Shown piece by piece: positions 28,395 through 62,603 of a stretch of 64,000 bases of DNA. Location: positions 62,001 to 126,000 of the forward strand of contig JABAZP010000036.1 in assembly GCA_018608405.1 (NCBI GenBank), written 5' to 3'. A model generated the notes under the pieces. It was not told where the DNA came from. It saw nothing but the letters and a program-made list of their open reading frames with translations, and did not search any database. Both the position numbers and the translations under genes were made by a program. Source of the stretch: Flavobacteriales bacterium. Lineage in GTDB: Bacteria; Bacteroidota; Bacteroidia; Flavobacteriales_E; Vicingaceae. Each line of letters opens with the position of its first letter. Position 1 is the first letter of the stretch.

Positions 28395-30302
28395 TTACTT
28401 CTTCTCTTCGTCTTCTACCTCTTCAAAGTCAACATCCGTAACTTCATCTTCGGTAGCTTCGGCACCGTCTGTAGGCTGCCCTCCGGCTGCACCTTCAGCA
28501 CCACCTTGTGCGTACATTTCCTGAGAAGCAGCTTGGAATACTGTATTCAATTTCTCCATTGCTGGATTAATCGCTGCAATATCCTTCGCTTCGTGTGCTT
28601 TTTTCAATTCTGCCAAAGCGCTCTCGATTGGCTCTTTTTTGTCGGCAGGAAGTTTGTCGCCAAACTCACTCATTTGCTTTTCAGTTTGGAAAATCAAACT
28701 GTCTGCACTGTTAAGCTTGTCAATTTCTTCTTTTGCTTTGTTATCTGCGTCAGCATTTTCTTCTGCTTCACGCTTCATTTTTGCAATCTCTTCCTCACTT
28801 AAACCTGAAGATGCTTCAATTCTAATTGTTTGCTCTTTGCCAGTTTTCTTATCTTTCGCAGCAACGTTCAATATACCGTTTGAGTCGATGTCAAAAGTTA
28901 CTTCAATTTGTGGCTCTCCTCTTCTTGATGGAGGAATTCCATCTAAGTGGAACCTACCAATTGTCTTGTTTCCATTGGCCATTGGTCGCTCACCTTGTAA
29001 GATGTGAATCTCAACAGAAGGTTGATTGTCAGCAGCAGTTGAAAACGTTTCAGACTTTTTCGTTGGGATTGTAGTATTAGCTTCGATTAGTTTGGTCATT
29101 ACACCACCCATTGTTTCGATACCGAGAGAAAGAGGAGTAACGTCCAATAAAAGAACATCTTTCACTTCACCAGTTAATACACCTCCTTGAATAGCTGCAC
29201 CAATTGCAACAACCTCATCTGGGTTGACCCCTTTTGAAGGCTCTTTTCCAAAGAATGCTTTTACAGCATCTTGTATGGCAGGTATTCTTGTTGATCCTCC
29301 CACTAAAATTACCTCGTCTATATCTGAAACTTTCATTCCGGCAGACTCAAGCGCTTTTTTACACGGCTCAATTGTTCTTTTGATTAAGCTATCTGCTAAT
29401 TGCTCAAATTTTGATCTGCTTAAGCTTCTTACCAAGTGTTTTGGTCCTGATGCCGTTGCTGTAACGTAAGGTAAATTAATTTCCGCCTGACTAGAACTTG
29501 ATAGCTCAATTTTTGCCTTTTCAGCAGCTTCTTTTAATCTTTGAAGTGCCATTGGATCTTTTCTTAAGTCAATGCTTTCTTCATTCTCAAACTCTTTCGC
29601 TAACCAGTCAATAATTACATCGTCAAAGTCATCTCCTCCTAAGTGTGTATCACCATCGGTAGATTTTACTTCAAATACACCATCTCCCAATTCTAAGATT
29701 GAAACATCATGTGTTCCACCACCACAGTCAAAAACTGCAATGTTCACATCACTTGACTTTTTATCAAGCCCATATGCTAGTGAAGCTGCAGTTGGTTCGT
29801 TGATAATTCTTTTTACTGTTAATCCAGCTATTTCTCCTGCTTCTTTTGTTGCTTGTCTTTGTGCATCGTTAAAGTAAGCTGGAACAGTAATTACTGCCTC
29901 AGTAACGGTAGTTCCTAAGTAATCTTCTGCTGTTTTCTTCATTTTTTGAAGAACCATGGCAGAAATTTCTTGAGGAGTATACATTCTGTCGTCAATTTTT
30001 ACTCTAGGAGTATCGTTGTCGCCTTTTACCACTTTATAAGGCACTCTGCCTAACTCTTTCTCTACTTCAGAAAATTTACTTCCCATAAATCTCTTAATGG
30101 AGTAAATCGTTTTAGTAGGGTTTGTAATGGCTTGTCTTTTTGCGGTGTCACCTACCTTTCTTTCGCCGCCTTCAATAAAAGCAACGATAGAAGGAGTAGT
30201 TCTTTTCCCTTCACTGTTAGGAATAACAACTGGCTCGTTTCCTTCCATTACTGAAACACAAGAGTTCGTTGTACCTAAATCAATTCCAATTATTTTACTC
30301 AT
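28395..30302 (-). CDS. dnaK: Chaperone DnaK (Hsp70)
   Basis: A 635-residue Hsp70 that binds unfolded peptides under ATP control with DnaJ and GrpE. The ATPase domain starts [18 protein letters not shown] and contains the Hsp70 signatures [18 protein letters not shown] and [14 protein letters not shown]. The linker is [19 protein letters not shown]. The substrate-binding domain and helical lid follow, with an acidic Gly-rich tail ending EVEDEEKK. Note Cys and His in [10 protein letters not shown], where many species have DLGGGTFDVS; such variants occur in Bacteroidota. It is a single-gene unit with its own terminator. Neither dnaJ nor grpE is nearby. Upstream elements shared with groES are listed separately. 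Confidence 0.98.
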
Positions 30303-30348
30303 ATCTATTGTTTATTTAAATTCAAATTTTGTAATCTGAGATTCAATA

Positions 30349-30364
30349 GTCAATGAATATGCCA
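30349..30364 (-). promoter_or_regulatory. Candidate dnaK promoter, sigma-54-like -24/-12 sequence
   Basis: On the minus strand, TGGCATATTCATTGAC has the TGGCA and TTG blocks of the sigma-54 pattern (TGGCAC-N5-TTGC) at correct spacing, with two mismatches. It lies 47 bases before the dnaK ATG. An alternative reading is a housekeeping promoter: TTG at 30351-30353 and AAAATTTG (one mismatch to TAnnTTTG) at 30323-30330, 20 bases apart. Confidence 0.3.
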
Positions 30365-30367
30365 TTT

Positions 30368-30404
30368 AAAAAAAAATGACAAATTGTGAAAATCTGTCAT
30401 TTTT
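30368..30404 (-). terminator. Hairpin terminator after the DUF4249-like lipoprotein gene
   Basis: A perfect 10-bp inverted repeat AAAAATGACA / TGTCATTTTT with a 13-base loop is followed on the minus strand by nine T. It terminates the lipoprotein transcript, whose gene ends at 30449, and lies between a palindrome (30426) and the dnaK start. Confidence 0.7.
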
Positions 30405-30425: not shown

Positions 30426-30442
30426 TGTCACGAAATGTGACA
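30426..30442 (-). promoter_or_regulatory. Palindrome shared with the groES upstream region
   Basis: TGTCACGAAATGTGACA has 6-bp perfect arms (TGTCAC / GTGACA). On the minus strand it reads CTGTCAC-N6-TGACA, the same pattern as at 42052-42068 upstream of groES. It lies 124 bases before the dnaK ATG. It is a candidate operator or enhancer; binding factor unknown. Confidence 0.4.
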
Positions 30443-30448
30443 GAATGT

Positions 30449-31453
30449 CTACTCGAACTCGAAGCCTCTGTCTCCGTAGGTGTCAATGATATAACCTTTT
30501 GTATCACCACTTAGGCTAATTTTAACCGTAGTAATATTTCGAGATGCGAACAAGCCAATTCCATTCGTAATGTTAGTGTAGTCTGGCCTTACCTGAGCCA
30601 ACCCATCTATTGGACCATTAACATCTCTATAAAGGGTATAATCTGCATCCGCAGCCTCTAGAATTATATCTATGCCATCATCTAAAACTAATCGTTTAGG
30701 AGGGTTAAGGCCAATGGGAATATTTGCTTCAAGAGCAGTGAAAAACTTTTGCCCTTCAAAAATAAATGGAAAATTCACCACACCTAATGTAGGGTTTAAA
30801 TTGGAAGTTAGTGGGATTCTAATCGATTTTACGACACTATCTACATTAACTATTTCCAAGTAATTGAAAACCATGGTAGCCGAAAACTCTCCAACGTTTT
30901 CAGACGTTAGAAATTCAAACCTTTCGTCGATAATGATTTTCGATCGAGGGTCAATTAGACTTATTTTTCCACGTCTCCTGATATCCGGTTCAGCTAACGT
31001 AACACCACTTGTAACCACCGCTTCCCCGGTTGTTGTTGTTGCAGTGCCATTCAATTTGTCAACCGTTAAGGTATACCTTGTATTTTCTTTTACAATTGCG
31101 TCAGAATAATAAGCCTCGTTTCTTTCGGTAGTAAAAAGACCACTTACTTTTGGTCGAAGTATTTTAGTCATCTTGAATTGCTGGACAACCTCATTATCTT
31201 TATTAAATTCATTTAACGAAATATCTAAACTATCGTAATAAAGATTGTTTGGGTCTTGACCCAATTGAATTGCACCGGTTTCATCGTCTAGGAAAGTTTT
31301 GGTCACCTTTACAAATTGGGTATCACTTCCGGGGTCAATTAAACCTAGAATAAATGTATTTTCCTCAAACTCTGCATTCACCTCCACTTCGTTCTCGCAA
31401 GAAAAAAGGGTTGAAATCAAAACAATACTCGCTGCTACCTTTATCAAATTCAT
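30449..31453 (-). CDS. Lipoprotein, DUF4249-like
   Basis: A 334-residue predicted lipoprotein. The signal peptide ends in a lipobox LFSC (Cys19), followed by an acidic stretch [12 protein letters not shown]. The rest is beta-rich with an N-terminal Ig/carboxypeptidase-like region ([11 protein letters not shown]). It resembles the DUF4249 family of Bacteroidota surface lipoproteins, whose function is unknown. Assignment to that family is by overall look, not by a decisive motif. It ends 147 bases before dnaK in the same orientation with a terminator between, and is divergent from panB across 73 bases. Confidence 0.7.
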
Positions 31454-39996: not shown

Positions 39997-41652
<1,656 letters not shown>

Positions 41653-41666
41653 TTAAATTTTAGATA

Positions 41667-41942
41667 TTAAACAATAGCGAATAAATCAGACTCTCTCATA
41701 ATTAAGTAGTCTTTTCCTTCGATGTTAATTTCAGTGCCGGCAAATTTGCCATACAGCACAGTATCGCCTTCTTTAACCGTCATTGGTTCATCTGGCTTAC
41801 CGTTACCTACAGCAACAATTTTTCCTTTTTGAGGCTTCTCTTTTGCTGTATCCGGAATAATAATTCCTCCAGCTGTTTTTTCTTCCGCTGCAGCAGGTTC
41901 AACAAGAACTCGATCTGCTAAAGGTTTTACATTTACTGACAT
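41667..41942 (-). CDS. groES: Co-chaperonin GroES
   Basis: A 91-residue lid subunit of the GroEL chamber. It has the N-terminal [20 protein letters not shown] with a shortened mobile loop ([16 protein letters not shown]), the roof loop [16 protein letters not shown] and the end [12 protein letters not shown]. It is the first gene of groESL. The 187 bases upstream contain no TAnnTTTG box, but hold a sigma-54-like sequence, a CTGAAA-ATA-TTTCAG palindrome (42022-42036) and the palindrome shared with dnaK. No CIRCE (HrcA) operator was found. Confidence 0.97.
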
Positions 41943-41984
41943 ATTTTAAGTTTTAAGTTAGTTTTTTTTAACGAATTCCCTTAA

Positions 41985-42001
41985 GTCATAATTCGTGCCA
42001 A
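41985..42001 (-). promoter_or_regulatory. Candidate groES promoter, sigma-54-like -24/-12 sequence
   Basis: On the minus strand, TTGGCACGAATTATGAC carries a perfect TTGGCACG -24 block followed at correct spacing by ATGAC in place of TTGCA. It lies 43 bases before the groES ATG. No housekeeping TAnnTTTG box exists between 41943 and 42081. Confidence 0.4.
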
Positions 42002-42051
42002 TAGGTAAAGGCTGCCAATTGCTGAAAATATTTCAGTTTAGTAAATCAACG

Positions 42052-42068
42052 TGTCAGCTAAAGTGACA
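42052..42068 (-). promoter_or_regulatory. Palindrome shared with the dnaK upstream region
   Basis: TGTCAGCTAAAGTGACA, on the minus strand CTGTCAC-N6-TGACA, occurs 110 bases before groES and about 51 bases before the -24-like block. A third half-site TGACA follows at 42072-42076. It is a candidate activator or repressor site. Confidence 0.4.
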
Positions 42069-42077
42069 GTTTGACAA

Positions 42078-42110
42078 CAAAAAAAGCCACACCGGTAGGG
42101 TGTGGCTTTT
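42078..42110 (-). terminator. Terminator after secG
   Basis: A 12-bp perfect stem AAAAGCCACACC (42082-42093) with its complement (42099-42110), a 5-base loop and seven T on the minus strand, 20 bases past the secG stop. It closes the miaB-secG operon. Confidence 0.88.
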
Positions 42111-43584: not shown

Positions 43585-44090
43585 TTTGTTACTGCTTTAT
43601 TAAAAATGTCTTGCGTTAGCTGTTCATTTATTGCATTGATTAACTCTTCTTCGCTGGAAGCAAGGTCTTCATTAGCCGGTAAATCTTCGAAGCGAGAGAA
43701 GCTAGACTCGAAACTTTGCTTTTCATCGTTGGTGTTCGTAAACTTTACCTTAACGGTCATTGTAACCCTAGTTAGTGCAGCTTGTTCGTTTCCTTGAATA
43801 GCTACCGGATTATTGTTGTAGTCACTAATATATCCTTCAAATTGAAGGTCTCCATCACTTTTTACTAGCACCAAATTTGTTTGAGCTATAAATATATCTT
43901 TCAATGCTTCGGTAAACAATTGACCCGAGTTGGGCGGGGCTAAACTTGCATTGATTGCAAAGAAGTCGACAGATACCGTTTTAACTTCTGGAGCAATTGA
44001 AGCACCGGTAAACGAAAAAGAAGCTTTACAAGCCGATAAAATAACGGCCGTAATAAGCATTAAAAAACCTACTTGTTTGCTATTTCTCAT
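43578..44090 (-). CDS. lptE: LptE-like LPS assembly lipoprotein
   Basis: A 170-residue outer-membrane lipoprotein. The signal peptide ends in lipobox LSAC (Cys20), followed by the family start [44 protein letters not shown] and [11 protein letters not shown]. This matches the Bacteroidota 'LptE family' (LPS assembly plug that works with LptD). Sequence similarity to E. coli LptE is low, and the name rests on fold and context. It overlaps the activator gene by 4 bases and the next gene by 7, deep within a translationally coupled operon. Confidence 0.88.
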
Positions 44091-45382
44091 TGTTCAATTT
44101 CATATTCTTTAATCTTCCGGTACAAAGTACGTTCCGAAATTCCTAAATCTTCCGCAGCATATTTTCTTTTTCCACCATGTTTCTCTAAGGCTTTCTTAAT
44201 TAGTTTCTGCTCCGTGTCAGAAATTGAAAGCGATTCCTCTTCTTGTTCAATTACAATTTCTTGATAATCGTCTTTTTCTTCTGAGGCGTCATTTTTATAA
44301 TTAACGGCTTCGTCTGTGAAGTTAGACTCACTTCTCTGTACTGGTTTTTCTTCACTGAATTGAGCAAGCTCTAATCTTTTTTCGAGTGAACTTATGCTAT
44401 CTTGCCCACCATATAGTCGTTCAAAAACCTGATCATTAATTTCATCCTTATTTGGCTTTGAATCAGATTTAATAACTTGGAAAACAACCTTTTTTAAATC
44501 TGCAACATCTTTTTTCATATCAAAAAGTACCTTGTATAAGATGTCGCGCTCTGTCATGCCTTCTTTGTCCCCACTGTAAATCACAGGTAACGAAGCTTCG
44601 CTATTTTCAGGCAAATAATTCAGTAGTACTTCTGCTGTGATCAACTTATTTTTTTCAATCACAGAGATTTGCTCAGTAACGTTTTTCAATTGTCTGACAT
44701 TACCAGGCCACCTATATTTCAGCAAAAGCACCCTTGCTTCTTCTGTTAACTGAACGGAAGGCATTCTGTATTTGTCGGCAAAATCTGCAGAAAACTTTCT
44801 AAACAATAAATGAATATCATCCTTTCGGACGCGCAGTGGGGGAACTTCAATTGGCACAGTATTTAATCGATAAAATAAATCTTCTCTAAATTTATTTTCA
44901 TTAATTGCTTGAGGAATATTGACATTCGTTGCTGCCGTAATTCGAACGTTTGTTTTTTGTGGCTTTGAGCTACCAACCTTTAAAAACTCTCCTGTTTCTA
45001 ATACTCGCAATAGTCGGACTTGAGTTGTCAGTGGAAGCTCTGCCACTTCGTCTAAAAATATCGTTCCTCCATCGGCTACTTCAAAATATCCTTTTCGTGT
45101 CTCGGTTGCCCCGGTAAAAGAACCTTTTTCATGACCAAATAATTCAGAATCAATGGTTCCTTCAGGAATTGCTCCGCAGTTAACTGCAATGTACTTATTG
45201 TGTTTTCTCGCACTTAGCTGATGTATGATTTGGGGTGTATTCTCTTTCCCCGAACCACTTTCCCCGGTAATTAAAACCGACAAATCTGTCGGTGCAACTT
45301 GCACCGCAATATCAATAGCTCTGTTTAGTTGTTCGGAATGTCCAATAATTCCAAACCGCTGTTTAATTTGTTCAATTGTCAT
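44087..45382 (-). CDS. Sigma-54-interacting transcriptional activator without a receiver domain
   Basis: A 431-residue bacterial enhancer-binding protein. The AAA+ domain starts almost at the N-terminus: Walker A GESGSGKE (about 40-47), the sigma-54 contact loop GSFTGA (about 88-93, usual GAFTGA), Walker B GGTIFLDEV, and the R-finger region FREDLFYRLN. A helical, acidic linker (about 255-390) and a C-terminal Fis-type helix-turn-helix (KYAAEDLGISERTLYRKIKE) follow. No receiver, GAF or PAS sensor is present, so activity must be controlled by other means. It sits between miaB (1-base overlap) and lptE (4-base overlap). Targets are unknown; sigma-54-like sequences occur upstream of groES and dnaK in this window. 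Confidence 0.93.
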   Translation of the reverse strand: MTIEQIKQRFGIIGHSEQLNRAIDIAVQVAPTDLSVLITGESGSGKENTPQIIHQLSARKHNKYIAVNCGAIPEGTIDSELFGHEKGSFTGATETRKGYFEVADGGTIFLDEVAELPLTTQVRLLRVLETGEFLKVGSSKPQKTNVRITAATNVNIPQAINENKFREDLFYRLNTVPIEVPPLRVRKDDIHLLFRKFSADFADKYRMPSVQLTEEARVLLLKYRWPGNVRQLKNVTEQISVIEKNKLITAEVLLNYLPENSEASLPVIYSGDKEGMTERDILYKVLFDMKKDVADLKKVVFQVIKSDSKPNKDEINDQVFERLYGGQDSISSLEKRLELAQFSEEKPVQRSESNFTDEAVNYKNDASEEKDDYQEIVIEQEEESLSISDTEQKLIKKALEKHGGKRKYAAEDLGISERTLYRKIKEYEIEQ

Positions 45383-60429: not shown

Positions 60430-62603
60430 TTGCCCATAATGGATAAGAATTTGATTCGCATCATTCGAAGCTCTTCTTCCGAATAGGTTTCATCAAACTC
60501 TTGTATTGCATCGTCAATAGAATCTTCTTCAGTTTCCCTGAAATAGTCAATTATTTCTTCTTGATACTCTTCATCAAGTAAGTCATTTAAAATGTGGTCT
60601 AAATTTATTTTTGTTCCACTAGCAACAATGTGTTCTATTTCTTCCAAAATATCGTCAACGTCCTTCCCTTTGGCGGTAGCTATATCCTCTAGTGTCAACT
60701 TTCTATCAATACTTTGGATAATAAATACTTTTAAACCTGATTTATTAACAACAGATTTAACAATCATGTCATCCGGTCGTTCTATCTCATTTTCTTCAAC
60801 ATACTGCTTTATTGCTTCCAAGAATGGTTCGCCGAACTTCTCTGCTTTCCCTTGACCAACTCCAGTTATATTACACAGTTCTTCCATGGTAATTGGATAC
60901 TGAGTTGCCATATCTTCAAGAGACACTTCTGCGAAAATGACATATGGAGGCAAATCTTCATCTCGAGCTACCTCTTTTCTAAGTTCTTTCAATATGGCAA
61001 ACAATTCTTCGTCAGAAGCTCCCCCTTTAGCATTGGCAGAAATAACAGGGGCGCTGGCATCGTATTTTTTCGGCTCTACCATTGTAACACTATGCGGGTT
61101 GTCCAAAAACTCTCGTCCCTTATCACTAATTTTTAATACACCATAATTCTCAATTTCCTTAATGATGTAATTGTTGATAATCGATTGTCGTATAATCGAA
61201 TTCCACTTAATTTCTTCAATGTCCTTTCCAGCACCAAATGACTTGTGTTCGTCATTTCTCAACGATTTGATTTCGCTAGTAATCTCTCCTGCTAAAAAGT
61301 TAGAGATGTAATTAGCTTTGAAATTTTCTTTCAATTCTAATATGGTACTCATCAGTAAAACCATACTGTCTTTTGCGTCAAATTCAACCCTTGGGTTAAT
61401 ACAATTGTCACAATTTCCACAGTTTTCTTCTTCGTAGGTTTCACCAAAGTAGTGAAGCAATTGTTTTCTTCTACAAACGGCAGTTTCCGCATAAGAAACT
61501 GTTTCGAAAATCAGTTGCCTTCCTATTTCTTGTTCCGCTACAGGTTTTCCTTGTAGAAATTTTTCAAGCTTTTCAATGTCTTTGTAACTGTAAAAAGCAA
61601 TGCATCTGCCTTCTCCGCCATCTCGTCCTGCTCTTCCTGTTTCTTGGTAGTAACCTTCTAAACTCTTAGGAATATCATGATGTATTACAAACCTAACGTC
61701 CGGTTTGTCAATCCCCATACCGAATGCAATAGTTGCTACAATCACATCAGCTTCTTCCATCAAAAACATGTCTTGATGTTTTGCTCTTGTTGTTGCATCT
61801 AATCCAGCATGGTAAGGAAGTGCTTTTACGCCATTGACTTGAAGCGTTTCAGCAACCTCTTCTACCTTTTTTCTACTTAAGCAATATACAATACCAGACT
61901 TGCCTTGGTATTGATTAATATATTTTACAATCTGCGAATTAGCTTCTTTTTTTGGATTTACCTCGTAGTAAAGGTTGGGTCGGTTAAATGAAGCTTTAAA
62001 TACATTGGCATTTGACATGCCCAAATTTTTCTGAATATCTTGCTGTACTTTAGGTGTTGCAGTAGCAGTTAAAGCAATAATAGGGACTCTATGAATGGCT
62101 TCAATAATCTCTCTTAACCTTCTATATTCTGGTCTAAAGTCATGACCCCACTCTGAAATACAATGTGCCTCATCAATGGCAAAGAATGAAATTTTAATGG
62201 TTTTAAAGAAGTCTATATTGGCTTGCTTTGTTAAGGTTTCTGGAGCAACATAAAGCAATTTAGTTCTACCGGCAACTAAGTCTTCTTTAACAATGCCTAA
62301 ATCAGTCTTATTTAACGAAGAATTCATGAAATGCGCGACATGGTTTCCCGTAGAAAAACCTCTAATGGCATCTACTTGGTTCTTCATTAACGCAATTAAC
62401 GGAGAAACTACAATTGCAGTTCCTTCTGACATTAATGCAGGTAATTGATAGCACATGGACTTGCCACCCCCTGTTGGCATTATAACGAAGGTGTCATCGT
62501 CTTGCAAAACGCTTTCAATTACCTGCTCTTGTTCTCCTTTAAACTTGTTGAAACCGAAGAACTTTTTCAGTTGATCAGTAAGCGACATGGACGCTGTTTG
62601 CAT
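60426..62603 (-). CDS. recQ: ATP-dependent DNA helicase RecQ
   Basis: A 725-residue superfamily 2 helicase with 3'-to-5' activity in recombination and repair. Walker A is [19 protein letters not shown] (about 39-57), with [19 protein letters not shown] (DEAH), [11 protein letters not shown] and the [22 protein letters not shown] motif VI region. Four zinc-binding cysteines follow ([15 protein letters not shown], with an upstream Cys in [14 protein letters not shown]), then the winged-helix RQC domain. A C-terminal HRDC domain (about 530-610) and an acidic tail of about 100 residues end the protein. Start at 62603 (MQTASMSL) or the second ATG at 62588. Confidence 0.96.

Follow-up and report, generated by a model that had tools for sequence, protein, structure and literature searches.

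How the chaperone genes of the Bacteroidota are switched on is not settled, and the genomes from this phylum that we examined lack HrcA. The question is raised in a concrete form by a window of 64,000 nucleotides (positions 62,001 to 126,000 of contig JABAZP010000036.1; assembly GCA_018608405.1) from a Flavobacteriales bacterium of the Vicingaceae, in which dnaK and groES are preceded by one and the same palindrome, CTGTCAC-N6-TGACA. The original prediction, made from the letters of the window, had suggested a common regulator for the two genes. We consider it probable that the palindrome is part of a sigma-54 enhancer built on the motif TGNCA-N3-TGNCA, and that this enhancer is bound by an activator most likely encoded close to groES. 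The analysis thus yields an exact DNA motif, a rule for its spacing, a gene that is a candidate for the activator, and a set of predicted targets; the positions in the window are collected in Table 1.

The Palindrome Shared by dnaK and groES

The two exact matches to CTGTCAC-N6-TGACA in the window (0.00 expected from shuffles) are located where they had been reported, 124 base pairs (bp) ahead of the dnaK start codon (30302) and 110 bp ahead of that of groES (41942). A scan of the whole 2.64 Mb genome found TGTCAC-N6-TGACA at these two sites only, with the dnaK site counted on both strands. When the dnaK and groES upstream regions of the genus are aligned, the palindrome emerges as the right-hand part of a three-part element, TGNCA-N3-TGTCA-N7-TGACA. 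This element occurs exactly 16 times in 61 genomes, 12 times upstream of groES, three times upstream of dnaK and once elsewhere, so that the proposed concentration at the two genes applies to 15 of the 16 matches; the reversed control pattern occurs once in the same genomes. The shuffle counts and this distribution rule out a chance origin of the motif. The sole exact copy away from dnaK and groES is L182 (G037:C28:22225-22249).

Conservation in close relatives had been named as one test of the prediction. TGTCA-N7-TGACA is present at -140 in three of the four congeners with a dnaK match, and it is kept in three of the four congeneric groES upstream regions read. The reported lack of the controlling inverted repeat of chaperone expression (CIRCE) was borne out as well: the window contains no match to TTAGCACTC-N9-GAGTGCTAA with up to three mismatches, and an HrcA gene was found neither in this genome nor in any of the 60 relatives. 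No Rfam family was detected between 26 and 48 kb of the window.

Sigma-54-Type Promoters at the Chaperone Genes

Sigma-54 (-24/-12) promoters are distinguished by GG-N10-GC in a TGGCAY...TTG context. A promoter of this type lies downstream of each palindrome, about 45 bp ahead of the start codon, with the spacing GG-N10-GA in this genome and the canonical GG-N10-GC in some relatives; transcripts would accordingly be predicted to start near 30338 for dnaK and near 41974 for groES. The pattern TGGCAY-N6-TGAC has nine matches in the genome, among which only those of dnaK and groES lie in a gap between genes and no more than 70 bp ahead of a reading frame. Boxes scoring at least 8 are present in 96% of the dnaK, 98% of the groES and 93% of the grpE upstream regions versus 21-27% of shuffles, and 97% of a broader set of Bacteroidota groES upstream regions is of the sigma-54 type. 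The gene for sigma-54 itself, rpoN, is found in this genome (PF04552, E 2.9e-54) and in 57 of the 60 relatives. One relative (G053), rated 100% complete, gave no rpoN match and yet has two strong sigma-54 activator matches in 463-residue frames; either a contig is absent from its assembly or the genome is truly unusual in this respect.

The original prediction missed the class of the regulator because these promoters went unseen. The common regulator that it proposed, which is supported by the concentration of the motif, its conservation in relatives and a related site at grpE, is most readily interpreted as an enhancer-binding protein.

The Conserved Core Motif

While the palindrome is real at dnaK and groES and within the genus, its N7 form is not the conserved unit beyond it. 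As a basic unit, the N7 palindrome was rejected: it accounts for 22/55 dnaK, 19/46 groES, 15/65 broader groES and 3/30 grpE upstream regions, compared with 50/55, 41/46, 48/65 and 26/30, respectively, for the N3 spacing. What is constant is TGNCA-N3-TGNCA, a 13-bp palindrome that is often followed by a third TGNCA; rearranged motifs and other spacings performed far more poorly. With at most one mismatch, this core is found upstream of dnaK in 51/55 cases (shuffle mean 6.0), upstream of groES in 41/46 (5.3) and upstream of grpE in 29/30 (2.2). In the broader Bacteroidota contig set, which includes Pedobacter, Chitinophaga, Flavobacterium, Tannerella and Phocaeicola, it precedes 53/65 groES genes (6.7). 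Promoter and core were found together in none of 362 control upstream regions.

Members of the regulon were sought by pattern searches of the genome. The grpE gene carries TGTCA-ATA-TGGCA 19 bp ahead of its -24 GG, the only match of this compact pattern in the genome. In this genome, clpB is preceded by a single weak core and lacks a sigma-54 box; clpC was dismissed as a member, given that not one of 19 clpC genes has the module of promoter plus core in its upstream region.

Helical Phasing of Core and Promoter

Enhancers of sigma-54 promoters are dyad sites situated roughly 80-150 bp upstream, and their action depends on the face of the helix. Measured from the centre of the core, the first G of the -24 element lies at distances of about 20, 30, 41, 51, 62, 72, 83 and 93 bp, in steps of approximately 10.5 bp; site and promoter are therefore in helical phase, which is what one would expect if the site were a sigma-54 enhancer. 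The mean resultant length (R) at 10.5 bp is 0.82 for dnaK, 0.85 for groES and 0.86 for the broader groES set, and in a permutation of unique distances 0/5000 reached the observed value in each of the three sets. These phasing counts ignore phylogeny, for which counting each distance once is a partial remedy only, and those control motifs with a high R rest on 1-10 matches, too few to be read.

In the window, the core centres are positioned about 106 bp (dnaK) and 96 bp (groES) ahead of the predicted transcript starts, so that position and phasing at both genes are those of a sigma-54 enhancer, with the grpE site being nearer than is typical. The proximal element of dnaK adds two weak cores, each with one mismatch, 30 and 20 bp ahead of the GG; together with the distal core at 81 bp, all three dnaK cores are in phase. 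Phasing of this kind is what a protein obliged to face the polymerase would impose. Furthermore, a half-site is placed 34-35 bp out in 40/53 dnaK promoters.

A Candidate Activator Encoded Beside groES

Two proteins of this genome match enhancer-binding proteins with more than 200 bits, and the one linked to groES is the only one detected with a DNA-binding domain. Its AAA+ domain (Sigma54_activat, 222 bits) begins as early as residue 12 and contains the GAFTGA loop in the form GSFTGA (87-92) as well as the Walker motifs GESGSGKE (40-47) and TIFLDE (107-112), while a Fis-type helix-turn-helix (HTH) is found at its C-terminus (HTH_8, 52 bits; cut-off 22). The protein also has a linker of 120 residues, which includes a helix conserved near 278-305 and an acidic, variable part. 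The domain search detected no N-terminal sensor domain, and none of the named NCBIfam activators scored above its cut-off. The AlphaFold model is of low confidence (pLDDT 56) and usable for the C-terminal HTH helices only. The recognition region KRK-AA-ELGISERTLYRKIK is near-invariant across Bacteroidota orthologues. The gene is embedded in the row miaB-like, activator, lptE, TPR protein, secG, groES, groEL, 2 kb upstream of groES, and in many Bacteroidota its orthologues likewise precede groES by some 2-4 kb. By elimination and linkage, its product is most likely the activator of the motif.

The other strong match (L170, 2082-3248 on the minus strand; G000:C37) is NtrC-like, with a receiver and an AAA+ domain and no HTH or other DNA-binding domain. 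Its gene adjoins ABC transporter genes and alaS, and in many relatives the highest PF00158 scores belong to proteins of similar length.

A Proposed Mechanism and Its Alternatives

We suggest that the activator would bind the cores on the helix face occupied by the closed complex of sigma-54 RNA polymerase at the -24/-12 promoter, and that it would reach this complex either through a DNA loop, from a position of about -100, or by direct contact from the copies near the promoter. Hydrolysis of ATP by the activator would then open the promoter and permit transcription of dnaK, groESL and grpE. For dnaK and grpE the activator would probably act in trans, and the presumed signal is protein-folding stress. 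Since the activator has no sensor domain, its control is probably exerted via a partner protein. PspF is likewise a sigma-54 activator without an N-terminal sensor domain and is controlled by PspA (PMC4987338); a comparable partner might mask the candidate activator, and a free chaperone could, as a speculative guess, play this role.

Several points weigh against this interpretation. The support for it is at the sequence level throughout. The linkage of the activator gene to groES may be no more than the trace of an ancient arrangement of genes, and several genomes have lost it; moreover, the centre of the grpE site, about 20 bp before the -24 element, is unusually near for an enhancer. The broader groES set was picked by GroEL similarity, may share taxa with the relatives, and was counted, as were the latter, without regard to phylogeny. 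In many relatives the groES site takes the form of a terminator-like hairpin, so that part of its conservation may be at the RNA level. Finally, this genome is 93% complete, and another activator could therefore be missing.

The last point leads to the alternative that fares best, although we regard it as unlikely, namely that the motif is the enhancer of a different sigma-54 activator, for instance a two-component one absent from the assembly. Most relatives possess several PF00158 proteins, some of them 450-480 residues long, and three are given for Flavobacterium psychrophilum (PMC9723704). However, the other true activator of this genome has a receiver and lacks an HTH, the strong full-length matches in the congeners G002 and G003 (84% and 87% complete) are of the groES-linked type only, and the HTH of this type has hardly changed across the phylum. 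Still less probable, in our view, is a repressor or another non-sigma-54 factor that binds the site and works beside the sigma-54 promoter. The proximal copies, with centres 20 bp from the GG at grpE and 20 and 30 bp from it at dnaK, could permit steric repression, but the core distances, which run from 20 to 105 bp and grow by 10.5 bp at a time, agree with looping or with activation that depends on the helix face; in addition, HrcA was found in no relative and CIRCE nowhere in the window. That the palindrome is an RNA hairpin terminating the upstream gene is very improbable as a general account and ruled out as the sole function in this genome: a terminator-like shape with a T-run is present in 26/46 groES upstream regions and in 25/65 of the broader set, and the dnaK site here comes immediately after the stop codon of the preceding gene, but secG has its own separate terminator, the terminator pattern is rare at dnaK (7/55) and grpE (2/30), and the core is set by its N3 spacing and phased with the promoter, neither of which termination needs.

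We see the arguments as evenly balanced on the wider proposal that dnaK, groESL and grpE constitute a dedicated sigma-54 regulon across the Bacteroidota, under one sensorless, groES-adjacent activator that would take the place of sigma-32 and HrcA as the principal switch of the heat-shock response, and with an enhancer that often doubles as terminator of the gene upstream of groES. If true, core chaperones would be governed by sigma-54, a strictly activator-dependent factor, for which there are few examples, and at groES a single stretch of DNA would serve, unusually, as enhancer and terminator alike.

Relation to Known Systems

Transcription start site (TSS) mapping in F. psychrophilum, whose sigma factors comprise only one primary factor, sigma-54 and seven extracytoplasmic function (ECF) factors, placed sigma-54 (SM4) promoters at groES-groEL, dnaK, grpE-dnaJ, htpG, lon and clpB, and left the activator unassigned (PMC9723704). 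A motif scan from 2025 lists sigma-54 promoters at these genes across the Bacteroidota (PMC12316311). Genes and promoter class are the same as those described here, with experimental TSSs at groES-groEL, dnaK and grpE-dnaJ; in the parts consulted, however, the two studies report promoters and neither give an enhancer motif for these genes nor assign an activator. Sigma-54 control is thus already published, and the layer that appears undescribed is the enhancer together with its activator. In the open literature, neither the enhancer and its phasing nor the activator was found to be described; this novelty is provisional because subscription papers were mostly outside the search.

The candidate activator resembles PspF in that it, too, probably needs a partner for signal input, but it attains 276.5 of the 443.6 bits of the PspF equivalog cut-off, has the long linker described above, and sits by lptE-secG-groES. 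NorR enhancers, GT(N)7AC, are required in three copies (PMC4987338, PMC2941729). TGTCA-N3-TGACA contains GT-N7-AC, and several copies per promoter are seen here as well (three at dnaK); in contrast to NorR sites, the middle base of either half-site is free in this motif and its targets are chaperones, and the candidate reaches 290.8 of the 476 bits of the NorR cut-off and has no GAF domain ahead of its early AAA+ domain. The NtrC enhancer, TGCACC-(A/T)4-TGGTGCA (PMC4987338), shares its 17-bp layout with TGTCA-N7-TGACA, but conservation throughout the phylum is confined to the N3 spacing. HrcA/CIRCE and sigma-32 control the same target genes, whereas the system proposed here would be one of activation, not of repression.

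Positions of Features and Additional Observations

Table 1. Positions in the window of the features at dnaK and groES and of the candidate activator gene
Feature	Position	Strand	Details
dnaK	28395-30302	-	NCBIfam NF001413
dnaK sigma-54 -24/-12 promoter	30347-30364	-	TGGCATATTCATTGACTA; box TGGCATATTCATTGAC = 30349-30364
dnaK proximal element	30377-30399	-	TGACAGATTTTCACAATTTGTCA; between enhancer and promoter
dnaK palindrome	30426-30443	-	CTGTCACATTTCGTGACA
dnaK enhancer	30426-30450	-	AGACA-TTC-TGTCA-CATTTCG-TGACA; core centre 81 bp before GG of -24
dnaK core TGNCA-N3-TGNCA	30438-30450	-	first half-site AGACA, one mismatch
groEL	39997-41646	-	
groES	41667-41942	-	NCBIfam NF001531
groES sigma-54 -24/-12 promoter	41983-42000	-	TGGCACGAATTATGACTT; box TGGCACGAATTATGAC = 41985-42000
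groES proximal half-site	42013-42017	-	TGGCA; 12 bp before -24 TGGCA
groES palindrome	42052-42069	-	CTGTCACTTTAGCTGACA
groES enhancer	42052-42076	-	TGTCA-AAC-TGTCA-CTTTAGC-TGACA; core centre 71 bp before GG
groES core TGNCA-N3-TGNCA	42064-42076	-	exact
Intrinsic terminator after secG	42079-42106	-	GCCACACC-CTACC-GGTGTGGC-T7; adjacent to, separate from, enhancer
Candidate activator, enhancer-binding protein	44087-45382	-	431 residues; Sigma54_activat 12-179, HTH_8 387-427

At 30446-30451, the stop codon of the DUF4249-like gene that precedes dnaK falls within reach of the enhancer and overlaps its first half-site. The dnaK proximal element is near-invariant within the genus.

In about half of the groES upstream regions, the element is also shaped as the terminator of the preceding gene, with a stem ending in TGNCA that is followed by a T-run. 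Such terminator-like hairpins are present at L118, L119, L122 and L132 and, among the named genomes, at L063, L068 and L096; in an example of the form TGTCAGTATG-TCACC-CATACTGACA-T8, one DNA element apparently has two functions. Two further stretches, L162 and L164 (G000:C10:88129 and C15:67016), are identical over at least 220 bp, lie on different contigs and each contain TTGGCATAATCGATGAC; no open frame of at least 100 residues runs across them, and they probably represent a repeat or a decayed gene.
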